Positions 6,835-31,611 of a DNA stretch of 33,231 nt are shown one piece after another. Origin of the DNA: Pirellulales bacterium (GTDB taxonomy: Bacteria > Planctomycetota > Planctomycetia > Pirellulales > S012-138). The position numbers were made by a program, and so were the translations under genes. Location of the stretch: the NCBI GenBank assembly GCA_028066245.1, contig JALCBR010000042.1, forward strand, positions 5,550 to 38,780. Reading direction: 5' to 3'. How positions within the stretch are numbered: position 1 is the first letter of the stretch; each line of letters starts with the position of its first letter. The notes beneath the pieces were generated by a model. It worked only from the letters and a program-made list of their open reading frames with translations, was not told where the DNA came from and did not search any database.

Positions 6835-7771
6835 AGCGACGTTCCTCTTATAACCAGTGGGAGCCCGGTGGTGGACTGTTTGATTGGTTGAGCGAGTAGT
6901 TTGGAGTGACCAGCGAATTTCGCCGGCATTGTTCAAGTACCGTCAAAGCGTTCAGGCAAAGACGTTGTACAAAATGGCATCAAGACACGCGAACACAGGC
7001 TGGGTGACAGTACGGTCATGAGCGTTCCATCAGAAACGAAGGAACGTAAGCATTTGGCAGGTCTGTAAGGATACGCCACGTGGTGAGAGTGGGCAAGGAA
7101 CCGATGCTCAGGCTCAGTAACGCTTACAAACGAAAACGGAAGGAAATTGCCACGAGGCTGTGTTTGTACAGGCGGGAGCGGAGCTGCCAAAATGCACCAC
7201 GATCGATGAGTCTTGCTGGACCGCGGGGGCGGGAGAACCATACCAAGAAAGGCGCCTTTGGTACCGGGCCAACGGTGCTACGCTGCTAGCGTTGTCTTAC
7301 GATCCCGCACTTAGTCCAACACTGCCCGATGCTAAACGATCTCTTTGGTGGGGTATATTTCCCCAAATTTGCCTAGACGCTGAAGGCGGAATACTTGCCA
7401 CAATGCGAGTTCTGAACCATCTGGGCAAAAGCCAGTTCGAATCTTCAAGGGGGCAACTCGCAGTCGCCGATACCGTTGTTGTTCCCAACCTCTGGGAGCT
7501 TTGCAAACACGAATGCGCCAGGGCATCCGAATCGGCTTTTCGGGTCAAGGATTGGCTCGACGGATCTGGCGGAGTGACCGAGTGAACGAGGATCGATCGC
7601 ACGCTTTCTGTTTCGGCCCGACCCAACGACCGATACGTTCAACATCCCACTTGGATGTGTGAACGGCAACGGTTGGAGTTTTCCAGACGGCCTTGGCTCA
7701 CGCCCAACGAGACAGTCACGTGTGTCCTGCAGGTCGAGAAATCCGTTCCATGGATGAGGAGACGTCTTACC
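6835..7771. other. Long intergenic stretch without a supported gene
   Basis: About 940 bases between two oppositely transcribed genes, the largest gap in the window. Open frames up to 141 codons exist (for example 7160-7585 plus), but they lack ribosome-binding sites and their translations show no domain-like pattern. It should hold the promoters of both flanking genes. No tRNA-like or riboswitch-like fold was recognised by eye. Confidence 0.5.
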
Positions 7772-8368
7772 ATGAAATTTAAGCTTTTGGTTGGAACGCT
7801 GATCGTCAGCGCCAGCATGTGTACCCAGAGCTATGGTTTCGACCTTCTGGGCCGGATGTTGGGACTGAACTATCACGGCGGCGGCTGCTGTGAACCCAGC
7901 TGCTGCGACACTGGCTACACTGGTTGTGGCCACGACTATGGCTGCGGCTACGACAGCTGCTGCGATCGCGGTCACGGATTGTTCGGCGGCTTCAAAGGCC
8001 GTCACCATGGTGGTTGCTGCGACCCATGCGGATACGATCCTTGCGCCTGCGGCCATGACTATGGTTGCGGTTACGACAAAGGTTGCGGCTACGATCACGG
8101 TTGCAACACTTGCAACACCTGCGATCCGTGCAACACCGGCTGCAAGCGTCGCTTCAGCCTGTTCGGTTGGCTGTTCGGTGGCCACCGTCGCGGTTGCTGC
8201 AACCCGTGCGACACCTGTGGTTGCGGTGGCGATTACCACTATGGCCCCACGGACCTGCCCGCCGGCGATCAAGCCGCTCCGGTCCCGCCGGCCCCGGTTG
8301 TTGATCCTTCCGCTTCGGCCCGCTACCCGATGTATATCCGTCCGGCCAGCCGGATCATCCGGAACTAA
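7772..8368 (+). CDS. Secreted cysteine- and glycine-rich repeat protein
   Basis: A 198-residue exported protein with about 26 cysteines counted by eye. Residues 1-22 are a signal peptide (MKFKLLVGTLIVSAS..SYG). Residues 23-155 carry irregular Cys/Gly/His/Asp repeats, including two copies of CGHDYGCGYD plus CDPCGYDPCAC, CNTCNTCDPCNTGC and CNPCDTCGCGG. Two nearly equal basic pieces, 'LFGGFKGRHHGGCC' and 'LFGGHRRGCC', end sub-domains. The C-terminus (160-198) is Pro/Ala-rich. Start ATG 7772 is preferred over upstream in-frame starts because GAGGAG precedes it and the signal peptide begins there. Many Cys plus His suggest metal binding or disulfide cross-linking in the envelope, which is inference. 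A strong terminator follows directly. Confidence 0.85.
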   Translation: MKFKLLVGTLIVSASMCTQSYGFDLLGRMLGLNYHGGGCCEPSCCDTGYTGCGHDYGCGYDSCCDRGHGLFGGFKGRHHGGCCDPCGYDPCACGHDYGCGYDKGCGYDHGCNTCNTCDPCNTGCKRRFSLFGWLFGGHRRGCCNPCDTCGCGGDYHYGPTDLPAGDQAAPVPPAPVVDPSASARYPMYIRPASRIIRN

Positions 8369-8401
8369 TCCACGGTCGTCCCCGTCCGTTGGAAAACTCC
8401 G

Positions 8402-8436
8402 CCGCCTGGAGCGAACTCTCGCTCCAGGCGGTTTTT
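8402..8436 (+). terminator. Rho-independent terminator
   Basis: A perfect 13-bp stem, CCGCCTGGAGCGA (8402-8414) with TCGCTCCAGGCGG (8419-8431), has a 4-base loop ACTC and is followed by TTTTT. It lies 33 bases after the stop of the Cys-rich gene and ends that transcript. Confidence 0.93.
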
Positions 8437-8617
8437 CTATTGCGCGAGTCAAAGCCGTTGGAGCCAGGCCCGCGAACGCTGACGGCCCCACATGGAGATT
8501 GTCACAACCGCTTGCGTGCCACGTTTCAGTTGGCGCGCCTGATGTGCGTTCTCCGTTTGAGCGACTGAACAGACCGCAGCGCCAGTCGCATAAGATACAC
8601 ACACGTGGCCGCACAGC

Positions 8618-11005: not shown

Positions 11006-11584
11006 TTCCGTGCCAGGTCGAAGAGCGGACTACCGTCGTGGCGCCGTCAACCCAGGTGATTTGGGCAAGACGTGTGGCTCGCTATTCTAACTTGCCGATC
11101 AGCGAATTTCCTGGGTGCAATTCCAAGAAACGTACAGATTTAACTCAGCGTGCTGAACAAATGTCGCGTGCACGGATTTCATCGCCTCACTGGTCCTTTT
11201 GTGACGATAAATCCAAGTCAGTCCCATGCTCAGCGAGGGGTGAATCTCCGAAATTCGCACGAATTGTTGCTGGCGAAGTGGGGTTGATCTTGCCACCAAC
11301 AGCCTGGTTTGGGATGTAGTGGCCGGGCGAACGCCGGTGCCTCGCGCAAGATGCTATGGACAGCCGAACGACCAATCGGTGGCACTGATCGTGCCTGAAA
11401 ACCTCAGCGATGCGATCAGCCCGACCGCTCGTGGGTCGACTGTGTTGCTTTCCGATTCAAGTCGCATCGCGCATCGGGACGACGCAGATGAAGCGTGGAA
11501 ATGCCCTTGGTGCGAGCTGGTTGCAAGCACGCCGGCGTACTGTCAGTGCAGTCATCACCGATGGATCTTCCGGAGATGCGAGAC
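11006..11584. other. Intergenic stretch, no supported gene
   Basis: Divergent gap of about 580 bases between the HEAT protein and the Wzz-like gene. A plus-strand frame (11319-11735) includes a short Cys-rich piece reading WKCPWC then CQCSHHRW..CETC. It overlaps the following gene by 150 bases and has no ribosome-binding site, so it is not called. Nothing else stands out. Confidence 0.5.
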
Positions 11585-13138
11585 ATGCGATCTTCCCAGG
11601 CCACCGCGAATCGGCGCAGCCCTGCGACCGCAGGCAGCTCGCGTTGGTACGTGTTTGCCATCGCCTCTTTGTCCGTTTTCCTGCTGGGCATTTTCCTACT
11701 GGGCGATGCGGCCTCGAGTTCGCAAGCCGAAGTAGAACTGCGTCTGATAACAAAGGTGGAGAACGGCGCGGTCGGTCGGTCGTTCGATTCCCGCGCGATT
11801 GCCCAAGAGCTGGCAGCGGAACTGAGGCCGGACCCTACTCGCGACGTCTCTGCCGACCTCGCGGCGGAACTTGATGAAAACCTGGCGCTGCTTCGCGTTG
11901 CCGAGATCCGCTTGGACCAATCGGAGAGCCCTGGTGGGCTGGTCCTCATTCGTTGGTCGGCGGCAAGCAAACTTCAGCTAGAAACCGAGTTGCCATCGAG
12001 CGAGGATTTCGCGGCGCGATTAACCAATGCCAGCTACGCGTTCGCCAAGGCGATTTCCAACCGGGCACGGCAGCATGCGGCCTCCCATCATTTGGCCAGC
12101 GGAGAGCGCCTGCACGAAACAACTTCAACGATCAATCGTTTGGAACAGAACTTGGAACAACTGCTGGAGAGCAAGCTGACGACCGGTGGCATCGTTTCGC
12201 CGATCTCTTATCAAACGAGCTTGCCTGGGATGGAGAACGCGAAGACACAAAATCATCGGAAGCCGATGAGTGAGCCGCCGCCCGGTTTGATGATCAATGA
12301 TTTCGCAGGCGAGTTGGCATCAACACAAGACGCCGAAAGGCTGCGTGAGATGAAATTGCGTTTGATTAATGAGCGGACCCAGCTCTTGCAAGACATGACC
12401 GAGAAGCACCCGGACGTGCTCCGTAAGGACAAGCAAATCGCCTACGTGCAAGAGAGACTGGATGCGCTACCCATCGCGCCGTTGAACGCACTTCACGGCT
12501 CTGGCCCGCGTTTTCAAGATGCGTCCGCTGAGTTCGGTTCTGCCAGTTCTGAGCGGGTCGATGAACTGATGGGGCGATTGCAATCTATGCAACAAGGCCA
12601 AGAAACGTTGTTGGCCGAATGGCGGTCCCGGATGCTGACCCTCAATCAACTCAAGCAAGAACGGGATGAGCAGCTCAAAGCAGAACGGCTGGCCTTGACC
12701 GATTGCGTCAACCTGGCCGGGGCGGACCTGGCCACTGTCGAGAGTGTTCGCTTGAGCCGTGAAATCATTCCTGGACGCTGGGCCCTGATTGCCGGCGTGC
12801 TTGTGTTGGGTTCTGTCGTGTCAGGCGGTAGCCTTGTCAGCTGGGGCAAGCGCTGCGCAGCGACGTTCGCCAGCGTCGAAGAGGTACGCATGTCTGCCGG
12901 TATTCCCATCGTCGGTACGATTTCCTCCACCGAAGCTGATGTGATGCCTCCGGCTGCGCGGAGCAGGCGAATGTTTCGCGCCGTGACGTTCCTATGCGAG
13001 ATGTTCCTCGCGGTGAGCGTTTTGTGGGTCATCGTTTTGGCGATTGCTGACGCCGAATACCGCGCACTGCTGTTGGATAACCCTTTAGTGGCGCTCTTGG
13101 AAACGTGCGCCCGCTCCTGGCAGTTATTGCTGGGCTAG
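11585..13138 (+). CDS. Wzz/GumC-like chain-length or exopolysaccharide protein, no kinase domain
   Basis: A 517-residue inner-membrane protein resembling polysaccharide co-polymerases that set the chain length of exported polysaccharide. The first transmembrane helix is at about 18-40 (WYVFAIASLSVFLLGIFLLG). A long, mostly helical, periplasmic region follows, with coiled-coil stretches and the diagnostic 'LLQDMTEKHPDVLRKDKQI' (around residue 270, compare 'L...Y...HP.V'). Further membrane segments lie at about 399-420 and 467-488. Between them 'FASVEEVRMSAGIPIVGTI' matches the linker found after the second helix in Wzc/GumC proteins. There is no Walker motif. ATG 11585 is chosen because CCGGAG precedes it by nine bases; the frame is open upstream to 11495. 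No glycosyltransferase cluster is adjacent. The family call is moderate. Confidence 0.75.
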   Translation: MRSSQATANRRSPATAGSSRWYVFAIASLSVFLLGIFLLGDAASSSQAEVELRLITKVENGAVGRSFDSRAIAQELAAELRPDPTRDVSADLAAELDENLALLRVAEIRLDQSESPGGLVLIRWSAASKLQLETELPSSEDFAARLTNASYAFAKAISNRARQHAASHHLASGERLHETTSTINRLEQNLEQLLESKLTTGGIVSPISYQTSLPGMENAKTQNHRKPMSEPPPGLMINDFAGELASTQDAERLREMKLRLINERTQLLQDMTEKHPDVLRKDKQIAYVQERLDALPIAPLNALHGSGPRFQDASAEFGSASSERVDELMGRLQSMQQGQETLLAEWRSRMLTLNQLKQERDEQLKAERLALTDCVNLAGADLATVESVRLSREIIPGRWALIAGVLVLGSVVSGGSLVSWGKRCAATFASVEEVRMSAGIPIVGTISSTEADVMPPAARSRRMFRAVTFLCEMFLAVSVLWVIVLAIADAEYRALLLDNPLVALLETCARSWQLLLG

Positions 13139-17206: not shown

Positions 17207-17536
17207 TTACGACGTACCAAGAAACTGACTGGCAGCAACGCCTTCTTCCTTGGTCAGACGTGGAATTCGTCCAATCACGGTGTAGAAGACCTGGCCGTCT
17301 TCACGGATCAGTGCGGCATCAACGGACTCGACGATCGGTTCACCGGCCACATTCTTGACCTGGCCAGTGGAAATTGCTTTGTTCAGCGCTGAGACCGCGG
17401 ATGCATCCGCCAGAGCAAGCGGCTGCCGAGACTCTGGGCACAACAGCATTTTCACAAACTCCTCGCGCAAGACCGGCTCTGGCTCGGAGCCCGACAGGGA
17501 AGTGTCGTCTGCTGAAGTTTTTGCTGGCTTAGGCAT
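17207..17536 (-). CDS. Trm112-like (UPF0434 family) protein
   Basis: A 109-residue cytoplasmic protein of the Trm112p-like/UPF0434 family; in other organisms Trm112 activates methyltransferases acting on tRNA and release factors. The core reads KMLLCPESRQPLALAD, then PIVESVDAALIREDGQVFYT, VIGRIPRL. Normally two CxxC-like sites coordinate zinc; here only CPES is visible and the second is lacking, as in many UPF0434 members. ATG 17536 is taken as start; the frame is open to 17611, and neither start has a clear ribosome-binding site. A Ser/Glu/Pro-rich leader of about 25 residues precedes the domain. It is divergent from the secreted protein at 17889. The family call is good; the role is inferred. 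Confidence 0.8.
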   Translation of the reverse strand: MPKPAKTSADDTSLSGSEPEPVLREEFVKMLLCPESRQPLALADASAVSALNKAISTGQVKNVAGEPIVESVDAALIREDGQVFYTVIGRIPRLTKEEGVAASQFLGTS

Positions 17537-17888
17537 TGGAGGCTGTTGTGTGATTCGTTCAATGGATTGGGGAATCGCCCCCAAGATAGTCTTGCTAGCG
17601 GTGGATTGCACGAGGTGGCCGGGTCAATGCTCCACTTGGTACCCCGCAGCAGCGAGATTTCCGCTGCCATCAGTGAAGAACTTGCGAAATCCACCCTGTC
17701 GCCCGACCCGCAGGCTTTCGTGCCTCATGCGGAGTACGGGAATTCGCCGATACCCCCAAGGGGAGATCAGGGGAAGCGCCTCCGGTGGTGGGGACCACCT
17801 TTGGCGAATGCGGCGTAAAACGGGACGCGGCGACACGGACGTCGTTACGCGCAAGAAATGCACCCGCAGAACGACGCGGAGCGATCTC

Positions 17889-18503
17889 ATGTTGACCAAG
17901 AAGATCTGTTTGTTGGCCGCTACAATCTTGCTTGCTTGTTTCAATGTCGCCGCCCCGCAGGATGGGCAATACGTCACCCGCGACGGCAAGACCTACTACG
18001 AAACGCGGCAGAAAATCATGCGACCTGTCCAGCAGACCACGTATGAAGAGCGCGAGCGAACCGTCTACCGCGAACAGTACACCACGACTGTCGAGGAATC
18101 ACAGCGAGTGATCCACCTGCCGGTGACGGAGTATCGTTGGGAAGCCCAATGGCATGGACGCTGGAACCCGTTCGTGCAACCGTATCTGGCATATCGCTTG
18201 GTGCCGCGGACAACCTGGGAACCACGCGCGGAGACCGTGCGCGTTCCTGTCACCCAGCGCAATCTTGTGCCCGCTCGCGTCGTTGAGCGAATTCCCGTGA
18301 CCAGCCGGCAAATGGTCGAGGAAGAAGTCATTCGCCGCACGGCCGTTCTCAATCCGCCAACAGGAGTTCGCCGCGCCAATGACCCATTCGCAACTGGCGA
18401 GAGCCGCGTCGTCCGCCGCCCCGTCATCGGCGGTGTCTCGGAGCTAAAGAGCGATCCACCGCGCGCAGCGAACGGAAGTGAATGGCGCTCGGTGGTGAGA
18501 TGA
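17889..18503 (+). CDS. Secreted basic protein with Arg/Tyr/Val-rich repeats
   Basis: A 204-residue exported protein. Residues 1-22 form a signal peptide (LTKKICLLAATILLACFNVAA). The remainder is very rich in Arg, Val, Thr and Tyr, with motifs such as YVTRDGKTYYETRQK, YEERERTVYREQYTT and 'ETVRVPVTQRNLVPARVVERIPVTS', the last two reading like alternating strands. It resembles planctomycete secreted proteins with repeated YxE/VxVP units. A tryptophan-rich centre reads EYRWEAQWHGRWNPF. ATG 17889 is chosen with GGAG eight bases upstream; the open frame extends to 17355 through the opposite-strand Trm112-like gene and is not used. The 3' end overlaps the antisense continuation of the broken gene at 18504-18882. 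The role is unknown. Confidence 0.8.
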   Translation: MLTKKICLLAATILLACFNVAAPQDGQYVTRDGKTYYETRQKIMRPVQQTTYEERERTVYREQYTTTVEESQRVIHLPVTEYRWEAQWHGRWNPFVQPYLAYRLVPRTTWEPRAETVRVPVTQRNLVPARVVERIPVTSRQMVEEEVIRRTAVLNPPTGVRRANDPFATGESRVVRRPVIGGVSELKSDPPRAANGSEWRSVVR

Positions 18504-26148: not shown

Positions 26149-26443
26149 AAACCTAATCAATTAAGCAGCTTGCGCTGGACGTTCTCCAGCCCATCCGTGG
26201 TCCGGTCGCCGCACGCGCAGAATCTAGCAAGTCTGACAAATTATCGCATAGGCGGCTCCCCCCGGCAAGCGAAGCTCAGGTGGTAGCAAGAATGCAAAAA
26301 GGTTGTCTGTAAAATGTGCGTCGTCTAGCCTAGTTACCATAGTGTCCGGCACAGCCGGGCAACACGGCGATGACTGTCGTGACCGTAACGATTAATTCTG
26401 GGCAGCGCGCCACGATCTCATTCCGTAGCACATTGGAGACAAC
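26149..26443. other. Divergent gap between metH and the CsgG-like gene
   Basis: Holds a small hairpin, GCTGGA-CGTTC-TCCAGC (26174-26190), about 25 bases upstream of the metH start and read on the minus strand as leader RNA. It is too weak to call a riboswitch. No B12-box sequence was seen. Promoters of both divergent genes should lie here. Confidence 0.45.
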
Positions 26444-28045
26444 ATGAAGCTTCTGGGATTTGCGATGTTGTTGTTTTCGGGGCTTGAGTTTCCGGCGAAA
26501 GCCGAAGATCCAGTACTCGTTCGCTTCACATATCGTGCCAGTTCAGGTTTGGAGCCGGTCGCTGGGGTGCTTCTTAAGGACGAGCCGAAGGAATTGCGCG
26601 TACTCAACCTCAAAACACTTTACGAAAAATCGTATGAAAAGAAGTCGATTCTGCATCTCCAGAACCCAGCTTCGGAACAGGATTTGGTAACGGCTACTGG
26701 CATTGCACCGCTTGCTGCGTGGCTATTCAAGAGTTCGCTACCCGCTCAACTAGAATCGGGAAGAATTGCACTTGTGGATGGAGCCTTCGCATACATAAAT
26801 CTAGGTGACGATCAAAGTGTTCGCAAAACCGACAAATTCAACGTCTATCGCGGAGAGGAAGAAATTGTAGATCCCGAGACTGGTGAAGTGCTCGGTAAGC
26901 GACAACATCGGATTGGTATCGTAGAGATCGTCGAAGTGCGTCAGAAGCTGAGTAAGATTCGGCTCCTTGGTGATGTGGAGATACCGCTGAAAATAGGAGA
27001 CACTGTTCGTTTAACAACTGGTGGTCGGTCGGTGGCGGTTCTGCCATTCGGTAATGCGGATGGTGCAATTGCAAGAGCGAGCACTCGGCTAGTTGGTGAG
27101 ATGACAACTAATTTGGCGAAAAACCAAGTATCGGTTGTGGAACGTACACAACTCGCTGATGTACTTGTCGAACTCGCGTTGCAGCAGGCAGTCATTTTTG
27201 ATCAAAACACGATTCAAAAAATCGGTCGTCAAACCGCTGCCTTTGCCGTGGTTACCGGAACTATTGAGAATGATCGTCGAGCCTCGATCATCAATGTCAA
27301 GTTGATTGAGGTTGAGACTGGTAGGGTTCTGCGGGGCATTTCGGTTCGGACTAAAAAGATCGAAGCCGATTCGGCTGTAGGAGATGTTGACGCTAGTTCG
27401 ATTGTGCCGGCCGCTAGTGGAGCGATAGCTCATTGGCCGCTAGATGGAAACACTGAGAACGGCATTTCAAAGGAACTTGGTGCCATGATGCGGGGGAAAC
27501 CCCGATTTGTTGATGGCAAGTTTGACCAGTCGCTTGATTTCGGTGGGCGACGCAATACTGGCTACTTGGAGCTAACGCCTGAAGATCGAGTCGAAATAGT
27601 CCGTGACAAAGATTTTGCTATCTCGCTCTGGATTCATCCTATCGCAAATCAAAGACGTTGGCCGATCGCTGGACAGGGCATATGGGGAACACAAGGATGG
27701 ATTCTCGAGATTCTACCATCGGGCATACTATCCTTTGAGAGTTGGGACGAGAATGATCTCGACAATGGGACGGTGCGTAGCTCAAGTGGTGCGATAACAT
27801 TTGGTGACTGGAATCATGTCGCCCTGTCGGTCAAAAGGAGTCGAAGTGGCAACCAGACCAAGCTCTTCGTCAATGGTAATGAGGTGGATTCTGGTAATGT
27901 TCGTGAGGGAGACCTTGGCACCGCCGATTATTATATTGGTCGAATGCACCAAGACTACTTTCTCGGTCGCATTGACGAGATCTGGGTTTTTCAGTCGGCG
28001 TTAACTTCAAATCAGGTTCGTGAGTTGGCTACTGACAAGTACTGA
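26444..28045 (+). CDS. Secreted FlgT/CsgG-like protein with C-terminal LamG domain
   Basis: A 533-residue exported protein. Residues 1-20 form a signal peptide. Residues about 105-192 resemble the FlgT C-terminal/SHS-type fold, with 'GRIALVDGAFAYINLG', 'VRKTDKFNVYRGEEEI' and KIGDTVRL. Residues about 195-305 match the CsgG/FlgO/LpoB type: 'SVAVLPFGNAD', 'VVERTQLADVLVELALQQ' and 'VVTGTIE..RRASIINVKLIEVETGRVL'. Residues about 326-528 form a LamG-like concanavalin fold that starts AIAHWPLDGN and includes SLWIHP, GDWNHVALS, KLFVNGNEV and YYIGR. The combination suggests an envelope scaffold with a sugar- or protein-binding sensor at its end. ATG 26444 has only a weak GGAG ten bases before it. AT content is higher than in the flanking genes. 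Confidence 0.8.
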   Translation: MKLLGFAMLLFSGLEFPAKAEDPVLVRFTYRASSGLEPVAGVLLKDEPKELRVLNLKTLYEKSYEKKSILHLQNPASEQDLVTATGIAPLAAWLFKSSLPAQLESGRIALVDGAFAYINLGDDQSVRKTDKFNVYRGEEEIVDPETGEVLGKRQHRIGIVEIVEVRQKLSKIRLLGDVEIPLKIGDTVRLTTGGRSVAVLPFGNADGAIARASTRLVGEMTTNLAKNQVSVVERTQLADVLVELALQQAVIFDQNTIQKIGRQTAAFAVVTGTIENDRRASIINVKLIEVETGRVLRGISVRTKKIEADSAVGDVDASSIVPAASGAIAHWPLDGNTENGISKELGAMMRGKPRFVDGKFDQSLDFGGRRNTGYLELTPEDRVEIVRDKDFAISLWIHPIANQRRWPIAGQGIWGTQGWILEILPSGILSFESWDENDLDNGTVRSSSGAITFGDWNHVALSVKRSRSGNQTKLFVNGNEVDSGNVREGDLGTADYYIGRMHQDYFLGRIDEIWVFQSALTSNQVRELATDKY

Positions 28046-28167
28046 AGCTGACGGATGTGGCGTACCGTAAGTGCGTCAGTAGTTGAGTGGTGGACGTGCT
28101 TCGAGCGCTCGCATTATCGAAGCCCGTTGCGGAGACCGACCGGTTTCGCAGGGAACTCTGCGGTCGC

Positions 28168-30825: not shown

Positions 30826-31611
30826 CTAACCCGTCGATTTCATAGCGGACGCGATCAGCGCAAGCAGCCCTGCCACCGCGGCGAAATGTGTCCAGCCGAC
30901 CTTGTTTCTTTGTGGCGCATGTGCAAGCCAAATGCCGCCAAGACCCAGCAGCCATAGATAGTAGCCAAGGAGCGGACCTTTTAACGCGCCAGTAGGTGAC
31001 CCGTCATTGAAGAAAAAACTGGCTGTTCCGGCCGCACAGACGACCGTCATTCCACTAACCAGGCGGCCGATGCTCTTGCAGCGATTCTCTCGTGACCAGA
31101 ACGCGGTGGCCAATGTCAGGTAGGTGAGAATGGTGCCGTAGGCGGATCCCGTCCAGCTGATCAGCATCAGCCAACCCATACTGTGGTTTTGCCATAGCCA
31201 AGTGGCATCCATGAAGGATGCAGATGGCATCTCTAAGCCACCGACGAAGGTTTCCCAGCCATTGTGCTGTGAGGGAGAGAAAATTGTGAGCACCAAGACC
31301 GGCAACTCAAAAGAAATCGTCACACTGAGTGTCGCAATGACGGCCATCGCGCGGCACAGTAGGTGCCGGCGGGACAGCCAGTTTCCTAGGCCCAACATGC
31401 TGACTGTGAGCAATGCTGCGAAGCCCAATAGCGGCAACGAACTGGGCCAAGAGGGCACGGCCAACGCGATCAATCCGCACCACAAAGTAACAATTCCAGT
31501 CAGCAGCCTGAGCGTGTATTGGCTCTTCGGCCGATCACTCTTAGGCGCCGGTCCGGCAACCACTCTTGTTTCGCTCTGAACGGCAACGTGTGACTCTCTA
31601 TTGAGAGACAT
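30826..31611 (-). CDS. Multi-spanning membrane protein of unknown function
   Basis: A 261-residue inner-membrane protein with about seven hydrophobic helices, starting after a polar 33-residue N-terminus. They include 'LLTGIVTLWCGLIALAVPSW', 'LLGFAALLTVSMLGLG', 'AVIATLSVTISFELPVLVLTIF', 'MGWLMLISWTGSAYGTILTYL', 'VSGMTVVCAAGTASFFF', 'YYLWLLGLGGIWLAH' and 'FAAVAGLLALIASAM'. The loop after the third helix (about 110-150) is longer and has PSQHNGWETFVGG. No transport or enzyme motif is visible. ATG 31611 has GGGG seven bases upstream. It is convergent with the amidohydrolase and divergent from the ParA gene, so it is probably transcribed alone. No family was recognised. Confidence 0.75.
   Translation of the reverse strand: MSLNRESHVAVQSETRVVAGPAPKSDRPKSQYTLRLLTGIVTLWCGLIALAVPSWPSSLPLLGFAALLTVSMLGLGNWLSRRHLLCRAMAVIATLSVTISFELPVLVLTIFSPSQHNGWETFVGGLEMPSASFMDATWLWQNHSMGWLMLISWTGSAYGTILTYLTLATAFWSRENRCKSIGRLVSGMTVVCAAGTASFFFNDGSPTGALKGPLLGYYLWLLGLGGIWLAHAPQRNKVGWTHFAAVAGLLALIASAMKSTG

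Follow-up and report, generated by a model that had tools for sequence, protein, structure and literature searches.

Gene structure and domain architecture

Our study examined a gene of 533 codons within a 33,231-nucleotide stretch of planctomycete DNA, the whole of which is referred to here as the window (Table 1). The frame opens with ATG and represents a real gene; the longest open run in the stretch was 538 codons, compared with a maximum of 247 in 300 base shuffles. A signal peptide was called by reading the translation by eye only, with cleavage placed after AKA. No cysteine occurs in residues 1–40, and hence no lipobox; therefore nothing indicates a lipoprotein, and on the same ground the protein fits poorly with lipoproteins of the FlgO, LpoB or CsgG kind. 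A stem-loop search 3' of the gene gave no signal (z −0.79), and searches for repeats and promoters near it were uninformative. A 20-base direct repeat (90 % alike) was seen with one copy inside the gene (26934–26953) and the other just past the stop codon (28069–28088), which may be due to chance.

Table 1. Features of the gene and its product (window positions), and C-terminal tip groups of the 12 intact family copies
Feature	Position or copies	Strand	Basis
Whole gene, exported protein, 533 aa	26444..28045	+	ORF; homologous core in 12 further copies
GGAG, Shine-Dalgarno-like, five bases 5' of ATG	26435..26438	+	Sequence, counted by eye
Signal peptide, residues 1-20 (AKA|ED), without Cys	26444..26503	+	Read by eye; Cys count
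N-domain, residues 21-102, new	26504..26749	+	Family conservation; present with FlgT_C-type in L044/L048
FlgT_C/TsaP-type domain, residues 104-190, motif VYRGEEEIVDPETGEVLG	26753..27013	+	Pfam, core profile
FlgO/LpoB/CsgG-type domain, residues 195-303	27026..27352	+	Pfam, core profile, family models
Linker	27353..27412	+	Translation; family alignments
Laminin_G_3 (concanavalin A-like) C-terminal domain; Pfam match residues 372-525	27413..28042	+	Pfam; PDB profile
Tip group 1	L093, L094, L095, L170, L171, L172		BLAST E≤0.01
Tip group 2	L096a, L096b		BLAST E≤0.01
Tip group 3	L097, L173		BLAST E≤0.01
Tip group 4	L098		BLAST E≤0.01
Tip group 5	Window copy		BLAST E≤0.01

The chain runs from the signal peptide through a new N-domain, a FlgT_C/TsaP-type domain and a FlgO/LpoB/CsgG-type domain to a C-terminal Laminin_G_3 domain. 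The last of these gave the strongest Pfam match (E 7.6e-21, 75.3 bits, above the cut-off of 27.6), and its best PDB matches were an arabinanase (E 2.3e-4) and an S-layer protein (E 6e-4). Three families exceeded their cut-offs over the preceding domain, namely FlgO (residues 216–298, E 2.8e-7, 30.9 bits, cut-off 22.6), LpoB (E 1.4e-5, 25.4 bits, cut-off 22.3) and CsgG (best stretch 223–274, E 4.7e-5, 23.2 bits, cut-off 20.8), the best CsgG stretch spanning just profile positions 47–98 of 210. FlgT_C, matched at residues 116–174 (E 2.1e-4), scored 22.1 bits and stayed under its cut-off, 27. NCBIfam returned only TafC and LpoB for the window protein, both far under cut-off. A single-sequence fold prediction of the core reached a pLDDT of 35, and the domain picture is therefore without structural support.

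The FlgT_C assignment was examined across the family. Each of the 11 other intact relatives scanned showed a match at the corresponding position (E from 2e-6 to 0.058); L171 alone exceeded the Pfam cut-off (28.6 bits), the remaining 11 intact copies falling short of it. When a 7-row core profile was compared with all solved chains, the secretin-associated protein TsaP (6ve2) came top (E 8.6e-6, positions 95–158), followed by LpoB (4q6z, E 0.02) and a second TsaP structure (3jc8, E 0.036); a 10-row profile gave 3e-4 for 6ve2, 0.016 for LpoB and 0.0028 for 3jc8. Recurrence at one place in 11 relatives, the score of L171 and the TsaP profile match argue that the FlgT_C match is not due to chance, and by sequence comparison the call appears weak in the window protein and convincing for the family. 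The sequence-only reading had placed FlgT-like, CsgG-like and LamG domains in one chain, and the profile searches back all three, FlgT_C weakly in the window protein itself.

The N-domain is conserved across the family. Pfam gave nothing for it in the window protein and nothing convincing in eight relatives, and no PDB chain matched it below E 0.7; it is probably a small beta fold.

Distribution of the family

The family comprises 13 copies in 10 genomes, all of one class, of which 12 copies are intact and one is broken. Full-length cores were sought in three overlapping genome samples. Of 396 genomes from the order, 6 had one (G000, G008, G067, G183, G352 and G376); of 392 sampled across the phylum, 2 did (G000 and G758); and of 397 sampled across the class, 7 did at E≤1e-20 (G000, G067, G183, G758, G970, G986 and G1008). 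Two copies are carried by G758 and three by G1008, the third of which (L174, 6879–8318, minus strand) has its frame broken between the N-domain and the FlgO-type domain. The window genome holds a single copy with the core, its two further matches being to LamG only, and the gene was found in none of the four other genomes of the host's family.

The remaining matches are mostly confined to a single one of these core domains, FlgT_C-type or FlgO-type. By the family models, the proteins L044 and L048 carry the N-domain and the FlgT_C-type domain without the FlgO-type domain, and they continue into leucine-rich repeats, which exceed the cut-off in L044 but not in L048. A search of genome contigs with the single window protein found no match, and the same search with the 7-row core found at least 17 loci, mainly over the FlgT_C-type domain and, among the matches listed, mostly in Acidobacteriota.

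Domain order

Domain order was scanned with models of the three core parts over the 3493 open frames with 120 codons or more in the collected loci. The order N-domain, FlgT_C-type, FlgO-type was returned in 15 rows, which correspond to 12 distinct intact copies, as some loci overlap. Outside the family, the FlgO/CsgG-type domain preceded the FlgT_C-type domain in 26 of 26 two-domain proteins among the sequences scanned, although this is a biased count, many of them having been retrieved via their FlgT_C motif. The N-domain was present in none of these 26. Pfam was concordant for L099, L101 and L052, where CsgG was followed by FlgT_C below cut-off; for L100 it gave only CsgG and LpoB, and the FlgT_C-type match came from our in-house model.

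Proteins with FlgT_C and a CsgG-type domain in a single chain are common in Acidobacteriota, in the window's own phylum and elsewhere. Such two-domain proteins (L099, L101, L052 and others) share both domain types with the family, but place the CsgG/FlgO-type domain first and FlgT_C last, lack the N-domain and have a fuller CsgG match. The sequence-only reading had regarded the fusion as unusual. On the sequences compared, the combination of FlgT_C with a CsgG-type domain is ordinary and widespread, and it is the reversed order that is unusual; the rare features are this order, an additional N-domain and a C-terminus that can be exchanged. The permuted order, the N-domain and the pattern of a constant base with a variable tip were not found described in the open-licence literature, judged by titles. 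The domain types themselves are already known, and these three features would appear to be undescribed.

Two other arrangements were observed. Six Acidobacteriota contigs (L101, L102, L103, L105, L106 and L109) carry two adjoining CsgG-FlgT_C genes in the ordinary order, and each pair may act together. An SHD1-CsgG protein (L008, 1081–2550, plus strand) resembles the family in having a small N-terminal domain, a CsgG/FlgO-type domain and a C-terminal region, but differs in lacking FlgT_C, in the family of its N-domain and in a far lower score; a second CsgG-type gene lies nearby in its genome (G089:C114).

Constant core and variable tip

The core, of about 285 aa, is homologous in every pair compared (about 31–99 % identity), whereas the tips of the 12 intact copies fell into five groups (Table 1). 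The best hhalign comparison between tip groups, of the window with L097/L173, reached a probability of 4.3 % (E 0.0094), and Laminin_G_3 was found in 1 of the 12 intact copies, that of the window. The tips have thus been replaced or have diverged fast. In a core tree, in which the long rows of the window and of L098 are of uncertain placement, the window joined L173 (85/87, below the tool's starred level), whose tip belongs to another group. Both L096 copies fell in an eight-row group (94/96, unstarred) in which the rest have a group-1 tip. Taken at face value, the tree would imply two or more tip replacements; alternatively, a single fold that has diverged very fast, beyond recognition, may underlie all five groups.

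The tandem pair of G758 (L096, 8098–11057, minus strand; reading frames overlapping by four bases) allowed a closer comparison. Over 290 core residues the two copies are 99.3 % identical in amino acids and 97.4 % in nucleotides, with 22 changed codons, compared with 71.8 % and 71.2 % over the last 124 codons, where 76 are changed. The drop in identity from core to tip is sharp and lies at one point. Synonymous changes number 20 in the 290 core codons and 41 in the 124 end codons; because these rise too, the pattern reflects homogenized cores or a replaced end, and not amino-acid selection alone. Gene conversion or end replacement is possible in this pair.

Core and tip identities elsewhere were 78 and 74 % for L093/L094, 73 and 51 % for L170/L172, and 40 and 56 % for L093/L095. 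The last pair, with a tip more alike than its core, indicates that the two parts do not move together, and the near-equal values of the orthologue-like L093/L094 indicate that fast tip change is not general.

Composition and genomic context

The gene has a GC content of 49.2 % and a GC3 of 46.5 %. For comparison, 223 mechanically chosen ORFs of 200 aa or longer, from 395 kb of the host genome, had means of 56.2 % (sd 1.8) and 62.5 % (sd 3.7), and the gene lay below all of them in both values; the sampled sequence comprised twenty stretches on eight contigs, one contig supplying nine. The core (48.9 %) and the LamG part (49.4 %) are alike in GC, and the fused gene therefore forms a single unit in composition. 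The AT-rich stretch stops at the 3' end of the gene, with GC rising from ~0.50 to 0.63 at 28050. An AT-richer composition and a later acquisition had both been suggested from the sequence alone; the first agrees with these values, and the second is well supported by the lowest GC and GC3 together with absence from the four other genomes of the same family; the gene looks like a recent arrival from another bacterium.

Among the relatives, GC3 was the lowest of its locus for the window gene (first of 18) and for L173 (first of 6), but not for the other ten intact copies. L173 is the nearest copy to the window by core and comes from the same class but another order. The GC3 anomaly is strong in these two copies only and is absent in both L096 copies and in L097; the total GC of the G376 and G067 copies lies below that of all their neighbours.

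Across the window and six relatives' loci, no shared gene adjoins a family gene, distant resemblances being found further off. The ten neighbouring genes scanned encode unrelated enzymes and various other proteins, and a Mutator-type transposase frame, matching part of that family, adjoins the G067 copy. An empty-site test in 14 relatives (one of only 649 bases) found no tried window gene upstream of metH, other than metH itself. Phage or plasmid cargo was rejected, as no core match was found in phages or plasmids, and a defence protein was rejected for want of a PADLOC match. One viral contig in IMG/VR contains a 71-residue FlgT_C-type match (L175, 5001–5219). Four long ORFs of the window (7445–8614, 11495–13138, 17355–18503 and 30826–31611) had no Pfam match or only matches far below cut-off.

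Proposed role

Our tentative interpretation, which we would put somewhat short of an even chance, is that the gene encodes a scaffold of the cell envelope. The protein would be exported in soluble, non-lipidated form; its core, made of the N-domain and the TsaP/FlgT_C-type and FlgO/LpoB-type domains, would dock to a fixed envelope partner; its C-terminal module, of LamG type in the window copy, would bind a ligand that differs between copies; and the gene would move horizontally among genomes of its class. By analogy with ring and activator proteins, the core is taken as the docking part, and the likeliest partner would be a complex of the outer membrane or one linked to peptidoglycan, for instance a secretin. 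The argument for docking to an envelope machine is one of domain analogy only, because no partner is linked to the gene by position; it draws on the roles of FlgO, FlgP and FlgT in the Vibrio H ring (PMC7990780) and of TsaP with PilQ in the Myxococcus pilus machine (PMC7545093). LamG domains and leucine-rich repeats are common binding modules and, together with the variation of the tips, they suggest that the tip is the ligand-binding part, with a polysaccharide or a surface protein as the likeliest putative ligand. The earlier suggestion that the protein may bind a surface polymer is possible.

A wider form of this interpretation, which we regard as rather unlikely, is a mobile scaffold family in which a permuted ring-type base stays fixed and the tips are exchangeable, tandem copies keeping near-identical bases and diverging in their tips, such that a cell could alter binding at one envelope site by a tip swap. 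If true, bacteria with a poorly understood envelope would have re-used domains of flagellar, pilus and curli machines, permuted, as a general platform for binding tips that can change. Such an invariant base would then offer a single bait for the partner, and the tips a natural comparison set of binding domains.

Among the alternatives to the envelope scaffold, a TsaP-like protein would use the FlgT_C-type domain to ring an outer-membrane secretin in a type IV pilus or type II system, with the tip decorating or sensing the nearby surface. TsaP is the best solved-structure match of the core, and the host genome contains six secretin matches above cut-off. Against this, TsaP has a LysM domain (so named in the PDB), whereas LysM went unmatched in the window protein at E≤10; the gene is rare and patchily distributed, unlike the secretins of its own genome; and the shared domain is a single one, equally at home in CsgG-FlgT_C proteins. 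We consider this reading unlikely. A horizontally acquired orphan without a settled role in its host would fit the extreme composition, the absence from the same family and the solitary gene, but not an intact 533-codon frame with conserved core motifs, nor twelve intact copies in ten genomes with only one further copy broken, and it appears improbable. An LpoB-like activator of peptidoglycan synthesis, localized by its LamG domain, would account for the shared alpha/beta domain, seen as an LpoB match above the Pfam cut-off and in the core profiles. However, the lipid anchor is absent, FlgO outscores LpoB, and the NCBIfam equivalog score was 19.4 against a cut-off of 110.55, on which an LpoB orthologue was rejected. 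We give the activator the smallest chance of the explanations considered here. CsgG has a lipid-anchored N-terminus, and its full domain includes barrel-forming hairpins; the window protein shares part of the periplasmic domain and is unmatched over the rest of the profile. A curli pore was rejected on this short match and the missing lipobox.

A part of the flagellar H-ring type, with FlgT and FlgO domain types in one chain bracing the basal body, is suggested by the FlgO and FlgT_C matches. In FlgT the middle domain precedes the C domain, whereas the FlgT_C-type domain comes before the FlgO-type domain in 12 of 12 intact copies. FlgO is, moreover, an outer-membrane lipoprotein, unlike the window protein. 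The Vibrio H ring consists of FlgO, FlgP and FlgT (PMC7990780). FlgT and FlgO are separate proteins in Vibrio, whereas the window protein is one chain in reversed order, and a LamG or otherwise variable tip has no role in the H ring as described. The sequence-only reading had seen no flagellar or curli genes nearby, and none of these families was found in the 16 other window ORFs scanned. A full-length FlgI lies on another contig of the host genome; given this and the six secretin matches, both kinds of machine, flagellum and secretin, may be present in the host. FlgI-family matches occurred in 11 of 11 genomes tried, carriers or not. They include the four same-family genomes without the gene (in G002 as a short match only), and carrier G183, at 99 % completeness, shows no more than a short FlgI-like match. 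The distribution of the gene does not follow that of the flagellum, on which an H-ring part was rejected, leaving it a very slim chance.

A short FlgI-family match within a frame of ~580–800 aa was observed in each of the 11 genomes (for example L124, G000:C95:3150-3842). These frames occur with or without a full-length FlgI and perhaps represent a non-flagellar FlgI-like family.
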